This document shows, one piece after another, positions 2,603 through 13,388 of a stretch of DNA of 20,121 nt. Location: the IMG/VR virus record IMGVR_UViG_3300032282_001141, positions 1 through 20,121 of that record. One strand, written 5' to 3'. The DNA is from a virus. The notes under the pieces were generated by a model. The model worked only from the letters and a program-made list of their open reading frames with translations. It did no database searches and was not told the DNA's origin. Made by a program: the position numbers and the translations under genes. Position 1 is the first letter of the stretch. Each line of letters begins with the position of its first letter.

Positions 2603-2970
2603 GGCAACCTCAAAGTTTTTGCCAAGTTCGCCACTGTGCCCCCTTGCAAGTTCGCCGCCGCCTCCTCAGCCCTTTTCTTCAGTCGGTTGATGCCCGGTTC
2701 GCCGTACAGGTGCCGTACAAGGCCGTGGCAATGCGGATCGTTCAGCACGTCCTGCGGCTTGGCGTCACGGATATGACCGCCGACCCAACCGCGTAGCTCG
2801 TCCATTAGCATCTTGCGCGTCTCCCACGGCCCGACGGTAATGCGAGCTAGGTACGCTTCGGCTAACCGCAGTTTGCCGATTGGCGTGGTCGCTATTTCCG
2901 CCCACATGGCTTGGTTTTCCGTTATCGAGTAACTAATGTCGCTACTAACGATTGATTTGTCGTTGGTCAT
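2599..2970 (-). CDS. Hypothetical phage protein in the Cro-like operon
   Basis: I do not recognise this 123-residue protein. It is mostly helical and soluble, with no membrane segment. Notable parts are a segment GPWETRKMLMDELRGWVGG, an HCHGLVRHLYGEP stretch in the middle and a basic C terminus ending LAKTLRLP. The ATG at 2970 is preferred over an in-frame ATG at 3045, because it forms an ATGA overlap with the stop of the Cro-like gene and has AAGAGAACGGAC upstream. It overlaps the nuclease gene by four bases at its end. Position suggests an early function linked to DNA metabolism or regulation. Confidence 0.75.
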   Translation of the reverse strand: MTNDKSIVSSDISYSITENQAMWAEIATTPIGKLRLAEAYLARITVGPWETRKMLMDELRGWVGGHIRDAKPQDVLNDPHCHGLVRHLYGEPGINRLKKRAEEAAANLQGGTVANLAKTLRLP

Positions 2971-3131
2971 CGTTGTCCGTTCTCTTGTTGCAGGATCATT
3001 ATTTGATACTGGCGCAGCATCGGGATTTTGTTGTCCCGAAACCACTTGTGAATGGCTTGGCGAGAGATGCCAAGGGCTTTAGCGGCAGCGTTCTGCGAGC
3101 CGTATTTTTTTAATAGGTCTTTCGGTTTCAT
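2967..3131 (-). CDS. Cro-like DNA-binding repressor (54 residues)
   Basis: This is a short gene of 55 codons including the stop. The protein begins MKPKDLLKKYGSQ. Residues about 12-30 form a helix-turn-helix (SQNAAAKALGISRQAIHKW), followed by IPMLRQYQI, the layout of lambda/P22-type Cro proteins and Cro-like YdaS proteins. The size is right for Cro. It should bind the symmetric operator at 3148-3168 and repress the divergent early operon, its own operon, or both. No Shine-Dalgarno sequence lies upstream of the ATG. The best leftward promoter would start transcription within a base or two of the ATG, so a leaderless message is likely. Its stop overlaps the next gene as ATGA. No partner CI-like repressor is in the window. 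Confidence 0.88.
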   Translation of the reverse strand: MKPKDLLKKYGSQNAAAKALGISRQAIHKWFRDNKIPMLRQYQIMILQQENGQR

Positions 3132-6418: not shown

Positions 6419-6440
6419 AACACATTGGAAAACGCAATAG
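6399..6440 (+). CDS. Possible 13-residue leader peptide before the helicase
   Basis: ATG at 6399 has GGAG at 6390-6393 at good spacing and reads MPEHRRRTHWKTQ, then TAG at 6438-6440. It opens inside the hairpin at 6396-6413 and ends inside the helicase gene, past the TTG start at 6425. Ribosomes on this frame would melt the hairpin and expose AGGAG, so it could couple translation. It is very short and may be chance. Confidence 0.25.
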   Translation: MPEHRRRTHWKTQ

Positions 6441-7774
6441 ACGATGTTCTTAGCGAAGTTGCTAAAGCCGATGTCAGCAACCTGCCGAAATCGGAGTGGC
6501 ACGCCCGCTTTGCGTATGTGAGCGACGGCGACAGTTATTTCGATCTCGTGGGCCGCAAGGAATACGCCCGCTCAGTCTTTAACGCTTTGTACCGGCATGA
6601 GCCGAACTTGCAGAGCATCCACGCGGAGCGGCGCATCGACCCTGCTTTATGGTTTGACGAGAACCGGCGCGCTCGCGGGGGCTATACGCTGCAAGGCGTG
6701 ACGTTCGCGGCGGGCGATGAAAACTTGGTCAGCCGCAACGGTGAAGTGTTCGGCAATCGGTGGAGAAATGCTCGCCCGAAGGGTCGCCCAGGTGATGCGC
6801 GACTGTGGCTCGAGCACGTTGAGCGCATGATTCCCGATCCAATGGAACGTGAGCACGTTTTAAACGTGATGGCGTTTAAGCGTCAAAACCCGAACCGCAA
6901 GATTAACCATGCGGTGCTGCATGGCGGTGCGCCGGGTAGCGGCAAGGATACGATGTGGGCCCCGTTTATCTGGTCGATTGGCGGCCCGCGTAACGCGAAC
7001 GTGGAAGTGGTGCGGCACGAGGAACTGCTCGGGCAGTGGGGCTACGCGCTGGAGTCTGAAGTGCTAGTCGTTAACGAACTGCGCCAGCACGCTCGCATGG
7101 ATAAACGGGGCTTTGAAAATACGTTAAAGCCGCTCATTGCCGCGCCCCCAGAATTCTTGCAAGTAAACCGGAAAGGGGTGCACCCGTATTACGCGGTAAA
7201 CCGGCTGCTGATGCTGGCGTTCAGTAACGAGCGAGCCGCTATATCCCTGCCCGCCGATGACCGCCGATGGTTTGTCATTTGGTCGGACGGTGGCCGCATG
7301 GCAGAGTCGGATGCAATTCGGATTTGGAACTGGTATCAAGCCGGCGGGTTTGAAATCGTCGCGGACTATCTCGACCAGCGCGACGTGGCCGCGTTCAACC
7401 CTGGCATGACACCGCCGACGACCGATGCCAAGCTCGCGCTCGTCGAATTGGCATTGAATCATGCGGAGTCGTATGTTCAGAATATGGCCGAGAACAAGGT
7501 GGGCGAATTCGCTCGTGGAGTGATCTCCACGCCGCTCAACCTAATCGCGCTGCGGATTATTAAAAATAACAAGGATGCGCCGAGGGTGAACCGCGAGAGT
7601 ATGTTGGTCGCGCTAAAGCAAGCCGGCTGGCTCGACCGTGGAATGTGCGCGAGCCGCAAGTACCCGAACAAACGTCACCTCTATTGTCACCCCGATTTCA
7701 TTAGCGTGCCGAAAAGCGAATTGCGCAACATGGTCGAGCAGCCCGTACCGGTGACGCTCACCGTCGTGAAATAA
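6425..7774 (+). CDS. SF3/D5-like phage replicative helicase (DUF5906-type ATPase)
   Basis: The protein has 449 residues. An N-terminal region rich in RIDPALWFDENRRARGGYTL-type sequence precedes the ATPase core. The core has Walker A GGAPGSGKDT (Lys174), a Walker B-like VLVVNEL (213-219), LKPLIAAP, and a sensor-type NRLLMLAFSNE before DDRRWFVIW. This order fits DUF5906/D5-related helicases of phages and plasmids, which unwind DNA at the fork. No primase domain is visible, so priming must come from another protein. The start is a TTG with AGGAG six bases upstream; no in-frame ATG gives as complete a protein. The N-terminal domain is of unknown role. Confidence 0.85.
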   Translation: MENAIDDVLSEVAKADVSNLPKSEWHARFAYVSDGDSYFDLVGRKEYARSVFNALYRHEPNLQSIHAERRIDPALWFDENRRARGGYTLQGVTFAAGDENLVSRNGEVFGNRWRNARPKGRPGDARLWLEHVERMIPDPMEREHVLNVMAFKRQNPNRKINHAVLHGGAPGSGKDTMWAPFIWSIGGPRNANVEVVRHEELLGQWGYALESEVLVVNELRQHARMDKRGFENTLKPLIAAPPEFLQVNRKGVHPYYAVNRLLMLAFSNERAAISLPADDRRWFVIWSDGGRMAESDAIRIWNWYQAGGFEIVADYLDQRDVAAFNPGMTPPTTDAKLALVELALNHAESYVQNMAENKVGEFARGVISTPLNLIALRIIKNNKDAPRVNRESMLVALKQAGWLDRGMCASRKYPNKRHLYCHPDFISVPKSELRNMVEQPVPVTLTVVK

Positions 7775-9480: not shown

Positions 9481-9540
9481 GGTGCCCAGTGCACCCCATA
9501 GCACCCTCGAAGGAAGGTGCTACAGGCTGCGAACGGGTTA
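9481..9540 (-). repeat. Intercistronic two-hairpin element, copy A
   Basis: This 60-base element spans from the stop codon of the clamp-like gene to just before the next ribosome site. It aligns without gaps to 10192-10251 (offset 711; 40 of 60 bases identical by hand count). The main stem is TAGCACC (9499-9505) with GGTGCTA (9516-9522) and a 10-base loop. The minor stem is GGTGC (9481-9485) with GCACC (9491-9495) and a 5-base loop. Stem changes between copies are compensatory while the main loop differs. There is no U-tract. Confidence 0.8.
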
Positions 9541-10170
9541 GGCTGCGGCAGCAGTAGCAGTCGGCGCAAAGTCGGCCCAAGCGGGCACGTCTACGGACGT
9601 TATGCGGTCGCATCGCATCGGCATAATTACGCCTACCGCGTCACCCGTCAGCATGACCCGAGCGGCCGCACCGTCGCCATTTTCGCCGCCATTGTGAGCG
9701 ATAGCGGGCGAGTATTTCGACCCCAACAGTTTATTAATTTTCCCAAATGCGGCGACAAGATCGGCATCAAATTGCGACACCAGGCCCGACACAGTGTGCG
9801 GGATGACTCTCCGCCACTCGGGAAAACGGCCCTCGACGAGTTTAGTAGTTGTCGTGCTACCCCATGCGCCGATCGTCAACGACTGAGCGGTCGCGTCGAT
9901 CGACAAGGTAACGTGTCCGTTTTTAAAGGGAGCTTTTAACTTGTCGAGCGCATCGCGAGCAATAATGTATTGCCCAGGCACAAGCGGCGACTCGTCACCT
10001 TCGGCACGCTCAAGCGGCAGTGCGAGCAGCATATGCCCATCAGTGGCGACGGCGACCGCATCAGTGCCGCGCACGTCAATACAAATGCCGTTTAGGTAGT
10101 AACGCACGTCGTTCTTCGCGGCAGCGACGAGCAGTGCTTTGATTGAATCGACAGCAATGGAAAATTGCAT
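9538..10170 (-). CDS. Shortened beta-clamp-like protein (DnaN domains II and partial III)
   Basis: This 210-residue protein matches remembered E. coli DnaN in three places: DVRYYLNG (21-28), VATDGHML (41-48, DnaN VATDGHRL) and KLVEGRFPEWRRVIP (DnaN KLVDGRFPDYRRVLP). It then has VGVIMPMR near the end (DnaN YVVMPMR). These fall in domain II and at the end of domain III. Domain I is missing, and domain III is only about half its usual size; DnaN has about 366 residues. The kept motifs contain the pocket that binds clamp-binding peptides of polymerases and partners. It may form a ring of a different order, act with host clamp, or capture host clamp-binding proteins. A 24-residue alanine-rich tail follows MPMR. 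ATG 10170 has TCGGAG upstream, and hairpin elements lie on both sides. Confidence 0.85.
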   Translation of the reverse strand: MQFSIAVDSIKALLVAAAKNDVRYYLNGICIDVRGTDAVAVATDGHMLLALPLERAEGDESPLVPGQYIIARDALDKLKAPFKNGHVTLSIDATAQSLTIGAWGSTTTTKLVEGRFPEWRRVIPHTVSGLVSQFDADLVAAFGKINKLLGSKYSPAIAHNGGENGDGAAARVMLTGDAVGVIMPMRCDRITSVDVPAWADFAPTATAAAA

Positions 10171-10484: not shown

Positions 10485-10589
10485 TTATTTAGCGTTGAAG
10501 TATTCGACGATGGCAGCCACAACGGATAGTGCTGCAAACGCCAAGAACGGAAGAAAGAAGCCAGAAAAGAGTGCGACTAGGTATTCCAT
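10485..10589 (-). CDS. Small membrane protein (34 residues)
   Basis: ATG 10589 shares a base with the preceding stop (TAATG). The product, starting MEYLVALFSGFFLPFLAFAA, is a single hydrophobic helix (about 4-28) with a short end VEYFNAK. It is likely an inner-membrane peptide of unknown role. Coupled start and clear hydrophobicity support it; the small size limits certainty. Confidence 0.6.
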   Translation of the reverse strand: MEYLVALFSGFFLPFLAFAALSVVAAIVEYFNAK

Positions 10590-10786
10590 TAGCCCACCGT
10601 TTTCGCAAAGTTAGGCGGCGAGCCGTCCCACGTTGTCACACGGATAGAGTGCCAACCCTGCGACGTTGCCGCAGACTTAACAGCATCAATATCTGCAGGC
10701 GTGCGGCAGTTAGCCGCCAAAAGCTGTTCCATAAAGTCTCGGGTTTCACCTCGCGGCAACCCATAAACCAATATCTGACTTTGCAT
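10589..10786 (-). CDS. Hypothetical phage protein, first gene of the leftward operon
   Basis: The 65-residue protein starts MQSQILVYGLPRGETRDFMEQ. It has a strand-helix-helix-strand look: QILVYGLP, ETRDFMEQLLAANC, DIDAVKSAATSQG, HSIRVTTWDG. This is consistent with a small alpha/beta domain of a recurring phage type, but I know no function. CCGGAG lies upstream of the ATG. A leftward promoter with an extended -10 sits 33-62 bases before the start. Confidence 0.72.
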   Translation of the reverse strand: MQSQILVYGLPRGETRDFMEQLLAANCRTPADIDAVKSAATSQGWHSIRVTTWDGSPPNFAKTVG

Positions 10787-10818
10787 TGTTTTCTCCGGTT
10801 AGTTATTCAACGAAACTA

Positions 10819-10848
10819 ACAATAGCACAACGCAATAGGTTGCAACAA
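10819..10848 (-). promoter_or_regulatory. Leftward promoter of the mini-clamp operon
   Basis: Read on the minus strand: TTGTTG (10848-10843), 18 bases, then TATTGT (10824-10819), preceded by TGC to form an extended -10. The start would be near 10812, giving a leader of about 25 bases with CCGGAG. The palindrome GTTGCAAC (10839-10846) overlaps the -35 and could be an operator. Confidence 0.5.
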
Positions 10849-11045
10849 GTATTGCTGCACCTGCCCGGCATGCGGACGATTTGTTGTAGGCTGATACGGA
10901 AACAGACCACCACGAACATACAACAATGACAACACTTTGCAGCAATCCATGTTGTGACGTGCTCAAGCGTAGTAGGTTGTGTAAACGGTGGCATGATCGA
11001 GCGGCAACGCTTAAGTGACTGAAAATCACAACTAAAAGTGCGGCG

Positions 11046-11054
11046 TGGTATAAA
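11046..11054 (+). promoter_or_regulatory. Rightward promoter, extended -10 type
   Basis: TGGTATAAA fits the TGn-TATAAT extended -10 form. The -35 at 17 bases is poor (TCACAA), as is usual for this type. Transcription would start near 11061 and run toward the terminase genes across the repeat region. Together with the leftward promoter near 10830 it makes 10787-11072 a divergent control region. Confidence 0.5.
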
Positions 11055-11072
11055 AAGTAGGGTGTCTAATAG

Positions 11073-11321
11073 ATGGATAAAAAAAGGCAAGAATATAGTG
11101 ATATAGACACACTCTTAGAACGACTTGAAACGCACCATACTTTTCCTACCACACTGCAACATAATTGCCAAGTTATCCACAGACGTTCACTGCGTGGTCA
11201 TGTTGCACCCGCACAACTTGTTGCGTTTACGCCACACTTAGCGCACTGTTGCGTAGAAACAACATCACGCTTGCGTGTTGCGTGCAGGCAACTGTTGCGT
11301 GAAAACGACAGGGGGGGGTAG
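11073..11321 (+). CDS. Doubtful open frame across the repeat region (82 residues)
   Basis: The frame starts MDKKRQEYSDIDTLLERLE, which looks protein-like, just downstream of the extended -10 promoter. From about residue 26 onward the composition turns rich in His, Cys and Arg with no pattern, and the frame runs through the TGTTGCGT repeats, the DnaA box and the G-run. No good ribosome site is present (TAGGG, 11 bases away). It may be a non-coding control region, or a short gene whose end is accidental. Confidence 0.25.
   Translation: MDKKRQEYSDIDTLLERLETHHTFPTTLQHNCQVIHRRSLRGHVAPAQLVAFTPHLAHCCVETTSRLRVACRQLLRENDRGG
11155..11300. repeat. Iteron-like TGTTGCGT / GTTGC repeats
   Basis: TGTTGCGT occurs four times in direct orientation, at 11219, 11247, 11276 and 11293. 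The related TGTTGCA is at 11201, and its inverse TGCAACA at 11155. GCAAC-T-GTTGC (11288-11298) is a palindrome. Seven GTTGC/GCAAC words fall within 146 bases, where well under one is expected by chance at equal base use. Spacings of the last five GTTGC words are 18, 28, 29 and 17 bases. This resembles binding sites of a replication initiator or regulator. Confidence 0.6.
11173..11181 (+). promoter_or_regulatory. Consensus DnaA box
   Basis: TTATCCACA at 11173-11181 is the perfect high-affinity DnaA box. It lies at the edge of the TGTTGCGT repeats in a gene-poor region. A 9-base match can arise by chance in 20 kb (roughly one in seven on both strands), but its place beside iteron-like repeats makes an origin role more likely. 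Confidence 0.5.
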
Positions 11322-11331
11322 GGCCGACGGG
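11311..11331 (+). other. G8 run and possible G-quadruplex
   Basis: Eight G residues (11311-11318) are followed by TA, GGG, CCGAC and GGG, so four G-tracts fall within 21 bases. This could fold as a quadruplex on the rightward strand or in RNA. A homopolymer of eight is also a place where length may vary or be misread. It lies between the repeats and the small terminase gene. Confidence 0.35.
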
Positions 11332-11336
11332 CGACC

Positions 11337-11382
11337 GGTCATTGTTACGATGGACCCACAAAAACTTTTTTTATTTTTTTAC
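11337..11382 (+). terminator. Possible terminator or T-rich tract before the terminase genes
   Basis: GGTCATTG (11337-11344) can pair with CGATGGACC (11347-11355 region) with one bulge and a G-U pair. After a short gap come two T7 runs separated by A. As a terminator the gap before the T-run is long, so it may be weak. The T-rich stretch could equally be an easily melted element of an origin. It would end a transcript started near 11061. Confidence 0.3.
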
Positions 11383-11401
11383 ATCCACTACACTTTCTCT
11401 T

Positions 11402-11881
11402 GTGACCGCATTTAAGTCGATCTCGTTTGTCCCGCGTGAGGTGAAAGCCTCGCCCGACCTTCTGGAGAAGATTTACGAATCTTCCCGGTTAGGGTTGAAG
11501 GGTGATGCGTTGGCGTATGCTGCGGGTTTGCAGCCTGTGGAGTTTCGCCAGTTATGCCAATTAGACAATGCTGCGTCGATTGCAGAGGCAAAGGGTCGTG
11601 CGGACGCTGAAGTTGAGGCGGCGTCAGTGCTGCGTAATGCTGCGCTCGATGGTGACGCAAAGTCCGCGCTTGAGTTGCTTAAACACCTTCACGGATGGGT
11701 TGCCAAGACTCAAGTGCAGGTGGATGTTAAGTCGCAAATCAGCATCGTTGCCGCGTTGCAAGAGGCGGAGTCTCGCGTCCTCACAGGCCGAGTATTTGAT
11801 GCTGAACGGCCTGCATTGACCGCGCAGTCGGAACCCCGCCCAACCCTCTTACAGGATTTCAATGCAACTGCCGATCTATAG
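11402..11881 (+). CDS. Terminase small subunit (putative)
   Basis: From GTG 11402 the product is 159 residues. The first half has LLEKIYESSRLGLKGDALAYAAGL then EFRQLCQLD, a helix-turn-helix-like arrangement. The centre GRADAEVEAASVLRNAALDGDAKSALELLKHLHGW is typical of phage small terminase-type proteins found directly before the large subunit. The role is recognition of the packaging site and control of the large subunit. No ATG exists in frame and there is no clear ribosome site before GTG 11402. TTG 11342 would add 20 residues read from the T-rich tract, which look non-native. The end overlaps the large subunit gene by 20 bases. Confidence 0.75.
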   Translation: MTAFKSISFVPREVKASPDLLEKIYESSRLGLKGDALAYAAGLQPVEFRQLCQLDNAASIAEAKGRADAEVEAASVLRNAALDGDAKSALELLKHLHGWVAKTQVQVDVKSQISIVAALQEAESRVLTGRVFDAERPALTAQSEPRPTLLQDFNATADL

Positions 11882-13388
11882 CCCCGAAGACGAACAACTG
11901 CTGATGGCGCGGGTGTGGGCACCCAAGATTAAAGACGACCCCGAAGCCTTTGTGATGTTCGCTTTCCCTTGGGGACAGCAAGGCACGCCGTTAGAACACT
12001 TCTCCGGCCCCCGTAAATGGCAACGTGCGGTGTTGCGGCAGGTGGCCGACCATATTGCTAAGAACAAGACAGCAACCGCTTTTGAAGTGTTGCGCATGGC
12101 AACCTCGTCGGGTCGCGGTATCGGTAAATCCGCCCTCGTGTCATGGCTAATCTTGTGGATGCTCTCTACCCGTATCGGCTCAACGACCATCGTGTCGGCC
12201 AATTCCGAAGCACAGCTGCGCTCAGTCACTTGGGCAGAAATTACCAAGTGGGCGGCGTTGCTGATTAACTCCCATTGGTTTGAAATCTCGGCTACCCGCG
12301 TCATGCCGGCTAAGTGGCTGGCAGAGTTGGTCGAGCGTGACCTCAAGAAAGGCACCCGCTATTGGTCGGTCGAAGGTCGTTTGTGGTCGGAAGAAAACCC
12401 AGATTCCTACGCCGGTGTTCACAATCACGATGGCGTGCTGGTCATTTTCGACGAAGCGAGCGGTATTCCCGACCCCATCTGGTCGGTCACGGCAGGCTTT
12501 TTCACGGAAAACACGCCAAACCGTTTCTGGTTTGCGTTTAGTAACCCCCGACGCAACGAAGGGTATTTTTTCGAGACGTTCCACGGGAAACGTGCCTTCT
12601 GGATGACCCAAAATATCGACGCCCGCGACGTGGAAGACACCGATAAAGCGGTGTACGAACAGATTATTGAGGAATACGGGGCCGATTCCATCCAAGCGAA
12701 GGTCGAAGTGTATGGCGAATTCCCGCTGGCCGGTGATGAGCAGTTTATTTCGCCGCAGTTGGTGGAAGAAGCCACCCGCAGACCTGCTCACAAAGACCTA
12801 TCCGCACCGATTATCCTCGGTATTGACCCTGCCCGTGGTGGGGCTGACTCCACCGTCATTGTGGTCAGACAAGGACGCGACATTGTGGCAATCAAACGCT
12901 ACAAGGGCGAAGACACGATGGAGATTGTGGGCCGCGTCATCGACGCCATCGAGGAATACAACCCCGCCCTAGCCGTCATCGACGAAGGCGGTTTGGGATA
13001 CGGCATCCTTGACCGACTGAAAGAGCAACGCTATCGCCAGGTGCGCGGCGTGAACTTCGGCTGGAAAGCCAAGAACCCGATCATGTGGAAAAACAAACGC
13101 GCCGAACTCTGGGGCAATATGCGCGAGTGGCTGAAGACCGCTGCGATTCCGTCCGACCGTGCGCTGAAGTCTGACCTCTGCGGGCCGCACCATAAACTCG
13201 ACTCATCCGGTGCCATTCAGCTGGAAGGAAAAAAAGAGATGAAAGCGCGTGGCTTGGCTTCACCCGATGCCGCCGATGCGCTTGCAGTAACATTTGCATT
13301 TCCGGTGGCTTCGCGGGAATATAGAGATGCAGGTACACGGCGTTTGTCAAGTCGAGACGCCGTGTTGACTTCGTGGATGGGTGCGTAG
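11862..13388 (+). CDS. terL: Terminase large subunit (packaging ATPase and nuclease)
   Basis: The protein has 508 residues. The ATPase domain shows Walker A SGRGIGKSA (Lys89) and Walker B VLVIFDEAS (Asp197, Glu198). A coupling-type FAFSNPRR segment follows near residue 226. The C-terminal RNase H-like nuclease has ILGIDPARGG (Asp322), AVIDEGGLGYG and SPDAADALAV, giving the three acidic residues. It cuts concatemers and pumps DNA into the prohead through the portal. Length and motif order are normal. ATG 11862 has AGGA upstream and overlaps the small subunit gene. It precedes the basic-protein cluster and portal. Confidence 0.96.
   Translation: MQLPIYSPEDEQLLMARVWAPKIKDDPEAFVMFAFPWGQQGTPLEHFSGPRKWQRAVLRQVADHIAKNKTATAFEVLRMATSSGRGIGKSALVSWLILWMLSTRIGSTTIVSANSEAQLRSVTWAEITKWAALLINSHWFEISATRVMPAKWLAELVERDLKKGTRYWSVEGRLWSEENPDSYAGVHNHDGVLVIFDEASGIPDPIWSVTAGFFTENTPNRFWFAFSNPRRNEGYFFETFHGKRAFWMTQNIDARDVEDTDKAVYEQIIEEYGADSIQAKVEVYGEFPLAGDEQFISPQLVEEATRRPAHKDLSAPIILGIDPARGGADSTVIVVRQGRDIVAIKRYKGEDTMEIVGRVIDAIEEYNPALAVIDEGGLGYGILDRLKEQRYRQVRGVNFGWKAKNPIMWKNKRAELWGNMREWLKTAAIPSDRALKSDLCGPHHKLDSSGAIQLEGKKEMKARGLASPDAADALAVTFAFPVASREYRDAGTRRLSSRDAVLTSWMGA

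Follow-up and report, generated by a model that had tools for sequence, protein, structure and literature searches.

The region considered here (positions 10787–11401) lies in a 20.1-kb record, the whole stretch of DNA that was analysed and that is called the window below. The window belongs to a P22-like podovirus, as judged by its P22-like TerL and portal. The region is located between a block of minus-strand genes and the late genes, which begin with terS and terL. The terminase small subunit, TerS of type A (11402–11881, plus strand, with a proposed GTG start), was assigned because it precedes terL and is homologous to the TerS proteins of relatives; it has no match in Pfam. It is followed by the gene of the large subunit, a P22-like TerL (11862–13388, plus strand; phrog_2, tblastn). 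The original prediction, made from the letters alone, had seen no convincing gene in the region, and this holds, since an 82-residue frame at 11073–11321 overlaps the repeats described below and has no family match. Two minus-strand products of the window are a sliding-clamp-like protein (9538–10170), which matches the central domain of DnaN (PF02767) but is labelled as a RusA-like resolvase in PHROGs, and a small P22_Cro-like regulator (2967–3131; PF14549). Further upstream, the gene at 6425–7774 (plus strand) encodes a DUF5906 (D5-like) replicative helicase of 449 amino acids, recognized through Pfam PF19263, its structural model and fold matches. This helicase is the proposed initiator, a role for which the original prediction had recognized no gene.

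Relatives were gathered by a TerL search and by a search with the conserved core element described below, giving well over two hundred loci, picked by TerL similarity except for 39 found by the core itself. The near-complete relatives measure 35–42 kb and many of them assemble as circles with end overlaps. The only named phages near the window by DNA are MW202483 and OR003940, both circular records. Near relatives of the TerL (L282–L285) occur in metagenome-assembled genomes labelled Rhodoferax, Burkholderiales and Methylococcaceae, which are possible hosts, a binning error being conceivable. Among loci with both genes visible, the TerS type and the replication module co-segregate fully: type A goes with DUF5906 (72/72), type D with AAA_25 (10/10) and type B with DUF3987 (3/3), even though the TerL is shared. 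Comparisons between types therefore cannot separate TerS from the helicase; this is possible only inside type A.

The most conspicuous feature of the region is an iteron array (11202–11309, plus strand). The four direct repeats reported originally are indeed present, with TGTTGCGT at 11219, 11247, 11276 and 11293 as its sole four copies in the window, a number reached in 1 of 100 shuffles. The word is the visible half of a 16-bp imperfect dyad, GTTGCGT-NN-ACGCAAC. In a scan of the whole window, the three best dyad sites fall in the array, at 11220–11235 (13/14), 11277–11292 (13/14) and 11248–11263 (12/14), while 11294–11309 (11/14) ties with one site elsewhere and 11202–11217 (10/14) is weak. 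The further GTTGC/GCAAC words noted at the outset are also enriched (10 in the region against 3.0 expected), as are TGTTG/CAACA (12 against 3.9), both being denser here than nearly everywhere else in the window. Some of these words are scattered at 10838–11010, including GGTTGCAACA at 10838–10847 and another at 11004–11008, and could be weaker outlying iteron sites. Adjoining the iterons, a stretch with 72% A+T (11067–11116) is the candidate unwinding region. The window thus has four to five iterons; those upstream of the AT-rich stretch are weak, so that they are clear on one side only. The blastn alignment of the window with L002 (87.7% identity) begins at 11275, within the array, which suggests a mosaic junction at the iterons.

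Conservation of the repeats has to be judged by the array rather than by the word. The closest relatives (L101, L106, L110 and L115) share TGTTGCGT with the window; beyond them the word varies between groups, while it is uniform inside one genome. An initial impression that the iterons are not conserved was discarded, as it came from counting the window's own word alone. In the 500 nt preceding the core, at least four copies of one 8-mer are found in 142 of the 168 relatives whose TerS is of type A or B (A, 114/128; B, 28/40; C/D, 0/27), against 62 of 3086 control windows. In type-A loci, an AT peak has iterons on both sides in 73 of 91. The near-complete genomes carry their words at the array site, with no cluster elsewhere. 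In type D genomes, whose replication protein is AAA_25, unlike the DUF5906 of the window, the array lies directly after the primase-helicase gene and 0.8–2 kb from the core; the two elements are thus separable.

The variation of the word among relatives gives access to the protein that may read it. When 73 loci of type A are compared, an 18-column stretch at the helicase C terminus is the best predictor of which of them share a word, with an AUC of 0.92, compared with a median of 0.64 for the helicase and best stretches of 0.83 in TerS and 0.86 in TerL. With TerL, TerS and the remainder of the helicase controlled for, a partial correlation of 0.23 persists in the last 70 columns of the helicase. 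The co-variation peaks over residues 403–420 (7631–7684, plus strand), a predicted wing and the proposed reader of the iteron word, where the partial correlation is 0.34 versus 0.16 in the preceding helix. The clamp gene and a gene for a 122-residue protein, both located between helicase and array, show no correlation with the word, which makes linkage insufficient as an explanation.

At the level of single residues, the pairing between helicase segment and word is near one-to-one in several groups. GRVASGD[FY] segments pair with ATGACCCAA, the divergent L083 and L092 included, and GRLKSR[DE][FY] segments pair with TTGTCCACA. The window helicase (GMCASRKYP) and that of its relative L110 (GLVHSRRYP) have the same TGTTGCGT word. 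Where the rest of the helicase is 55–70% identical, the same word is found in 34 of 69 pairs matching in at least seven positions of a nine-residue segment, and in 7 of 1715 pairs matching in five or fewer, although the loci are mutually related, so that such pair counts exceed the true number of independent events. The permutation p value is 0.001, with permutations handling the non-independence of pairs only in part. Taken together, this co-variation indicates that the iteron word is probably specified by the C-terminal domain of the helicase.

The structural model of the helicase has a mean pLDDT of 88.6, with the NrS-1 helicase (6k9c) and the SaPI5 primase-helicase (7ola) as best fold matches and PriRep1 with dsDNA (7pds) also among the matches. 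Taken alone, the modelled C-terminal domain has a winged-helix-like order of elements. Foldseek returned no match below E 0.001 for this domain, and the best VIA-align hit is weak (Z 5.8, rmsd 3.2, 80 residues aligned), the hits being mostly winged-helix proteins such as cullin WHB and PadR.

From evidence that is comparative throughout, it is proposed, with a probability of roughly 0.78, that the TGTTGCGT array and the AT-rich stretch form a replication origin for which the helicase encoded at 6425–7774 is the initiator, and that the adjacent 67-bp element is a different functional site. DUF5906 is a D5-type helicase domain (PMC9611036), and it is this, combined with the mechanism of SaPI Rep, PICI Pri-Rep and P4 alpha, that leads the array and 11067–11116 to be taken as origin and the gene at 6425–7774 as initiator. 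The helicase would bind the iterons through its winged-helix-like C-terminal domain, with the wing (residues about 403–420) reading the word; it would then melt the DNA nearby and load itself, so that replication begins. The original prediction is thus supported in part. Its iteron origin gains strong support, since the arrays keep their position and the word varies together with the helicase C-terminal segment, but the DnaA box is not conserved and the G8 and T tracts belong to the neighbouring core. A small HTH protein as driver found no support. The GC skew check suggested at the outset did not favour the site, as the minima in 29 near-complete relatives are scattered, with none at the site, where the skew is weak and follows gene direction.

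The second element of the region is a conserved single-copy core of 67 bp (11312–11378, plus strand), which comprises a G-run, AGGGCC, CGGTCA, TTACG, CACAAAAA and T tracts. The G8 run (11311–11318) and the two T7 runs (11366–11372 and 11374–11380) had been correctly noted, but as parts of the origin, whereas they belong to this separate element tied to terL. The core is present once in each of 241 loci, on the strand of terL in 237/237. Among the 220 loci in which 1500 nt or more precede terL, 8 lack the core, 5 of them with a TerL below 50% identity. It is positioned upstream of terS in type A and mostly so in type B, and separates the two terminase genes in types C and D, a placement showing that the core follows terL, not terS. 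It stays by terL in the type D genomes, where the array is elsewhere. The core is tied to the TerL clade and not to the TerS type.

Its single copy, fixed orientation and linkage to the terminase are as expected of a pac or cos site. The best guess, at about even odds, is that the core is such a packaging-initiation site, where the packaging of concatemers would begin. Contig ends give a weak hint: 7 of 100 truncated contigs have their first base in the interval from 63 nt before the core to 17 nt into it, compared with some 2 per 100 nt in the vicinity, but these starts share no fixed base. Near-complete contigs are broken at any position, and many have overlapping ends. Cohesive ends fixed at the core were rejected, given that contig starts are only mildly in excess and repeats could account for that. 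An RNA element was likewise rejected, with no Rfam match and no conserved consensus fold. The main competitor, possible though doubtful, is that the core (and not the array) is a late promoter or the leader of the terminase operon. Its constant place upstream of terL, on the same strand and at the start of the late block, would agree with this role. However, in types C and D the core is preceded by terS, its distance to terL ranges from about 5 to 2300 nt with genes between, and it contains neither promoter hexamers nor conserved RNA structure.

Packaging has also to be considered for the region as a whole, with TerS binding the iterons and TerL cutting the core, as in cosB/cosN or the SPP1 pac site. 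The region precedes terS and terL, the core is tied to terL in all relatives, and arrays beside the core are confined to TerS types A and B, in which terS follows the core. Furthermore, the N-terminal columns of TerS correlate with the iteron word, and a smaller partial correlation (0.17) remains there. Nevertheless, the helicase wing predicts the word better than TerS, the type D array sits against the replication gene and not the core, and identical TerS helix residues occur in different phages with different words, on which ground TerS was rejected as the iteron reader. This explanation is accordingly considered improbable.

It is still less probable, and indeed quite unlikely, that the iterons serve as operators, bound by a repressor or activator which controls transcription of the minus-strand genes and, divergently, of the late operon. 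The array does occupy a divergent junction and its sites are palindromic. However, after correction for the helicase end, no tested neighbouring gene family has predictive value for the word, and the words are found at one site only, absent from other promoters; genome-wide operators were discarded on the grounds that the words form no clusters elsewhere. The divergent extended −10 promoters of the original prediction were not recovered by a consensus scan of 10500–11900, which found none with 1.1 expected by chance, the best promoter-like candidate by eye being TGGTATAAA near 11046.

Finally, an origin driven by host DnaA is very hard to sustain. The perfect box claimed at 11173–11181 (plus strand) is present as TTATCCACA and adjoins the iterons, and some relatives use TTGTCCACA or TTATCCACA as words. 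However, of the relatives scanned, only 5, counting the window, have a perfect box close to the core, a box match is expected by chance (2 degenerate boxes in the window versus 1.5 expected) and a phage DnaA-domain protein occurs in only 2 of 47 records. That protein, a small DnaA-domain-IV-like product (PF08299; L087, 7083–7379, minus strand), was rejected as a reader on the same count. Conserved DnaA boxes, the mark of an oriC-like origin, were not found, and TTATCCACA is probably outside the mechanism.

If the helicase-driven origin is accepted, it would name a putative initiator for a large and mostly uncultured family of P22-like podoviruses. Nature supplies dozens of matched wing sequences and iteron words, which make a specificity code of D5-like initiator helicases directly testable. 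The core, for its part, follows the packaging motor across several TerS types and offers a handle on the start of packaging in the group. A more speculative extension, advanced tentatively, is that the wing is a modular determinant of origin specificity with many natural alleles, and that the core is a packaging start read by TerL (not TerS), kept constant while TerS types swap and placed by the origin to give replication and packaging a common point of control.

Among known systems, the best reading is an origin of the initiator-helicase kind, as in SaPI Rep, the PICIs and P4 alpha. Three features of that kind were found here: an array of short repeats at one site; an element-encoded hexameric-type helicase with a putative DNA-reading C-terminal domain, the winged-helix match of which is weak; and, as judged by co-variation, an iteron word specified by that domain. 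The closest structural match is the NrS-1 DUF5906 primase-polymerase-helicase (6k9c; Z 24.2, rmsd 5.3, 359 residues aligned), a likeness of protein structure, the two being far apart in sequence (15% identity). In P4, according to the part of PMC4234260 that cites Yeo 2002, the alpha helicase reads origin repeats through a C-terminal winged-helix domain; P4 has a primase belonging to the bacterial Toprim type (PMC4234260), whereas the DUF5906 helicase of the window has no primase domain in the same chain. The pri-rep-ori modules of Gram-negative PICIs likewise have a helicase, Pri-Rep, that reads origin repeats, and in PICI origins two iteron sets flank an AT-rich region (PMC6092414). However, PICIs are satellites, while the origin proposed here would be the phage's own, in a P22-like podovirus family. 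SaPI Rep is a self-loading initiator helicase whose C-terminal domain recognizes the short iterons of the origin (PMC7581432), and the fold search recovers the SaPI5 primase-helicase (7ola) and PriRep1 (7pds). The SaPI origin is directly downstream of rep, whereas in the window about 3.4 kb separate the helicase gene from the array, which lies downstream of it by the terminase genes; SaPI-type adjacency is found in the type D relatives, with a different (AAA_25) replication protein. Because of this distance, the proposed origin would work like that of a SaPI, without being of the SaPI type in the strict sense.
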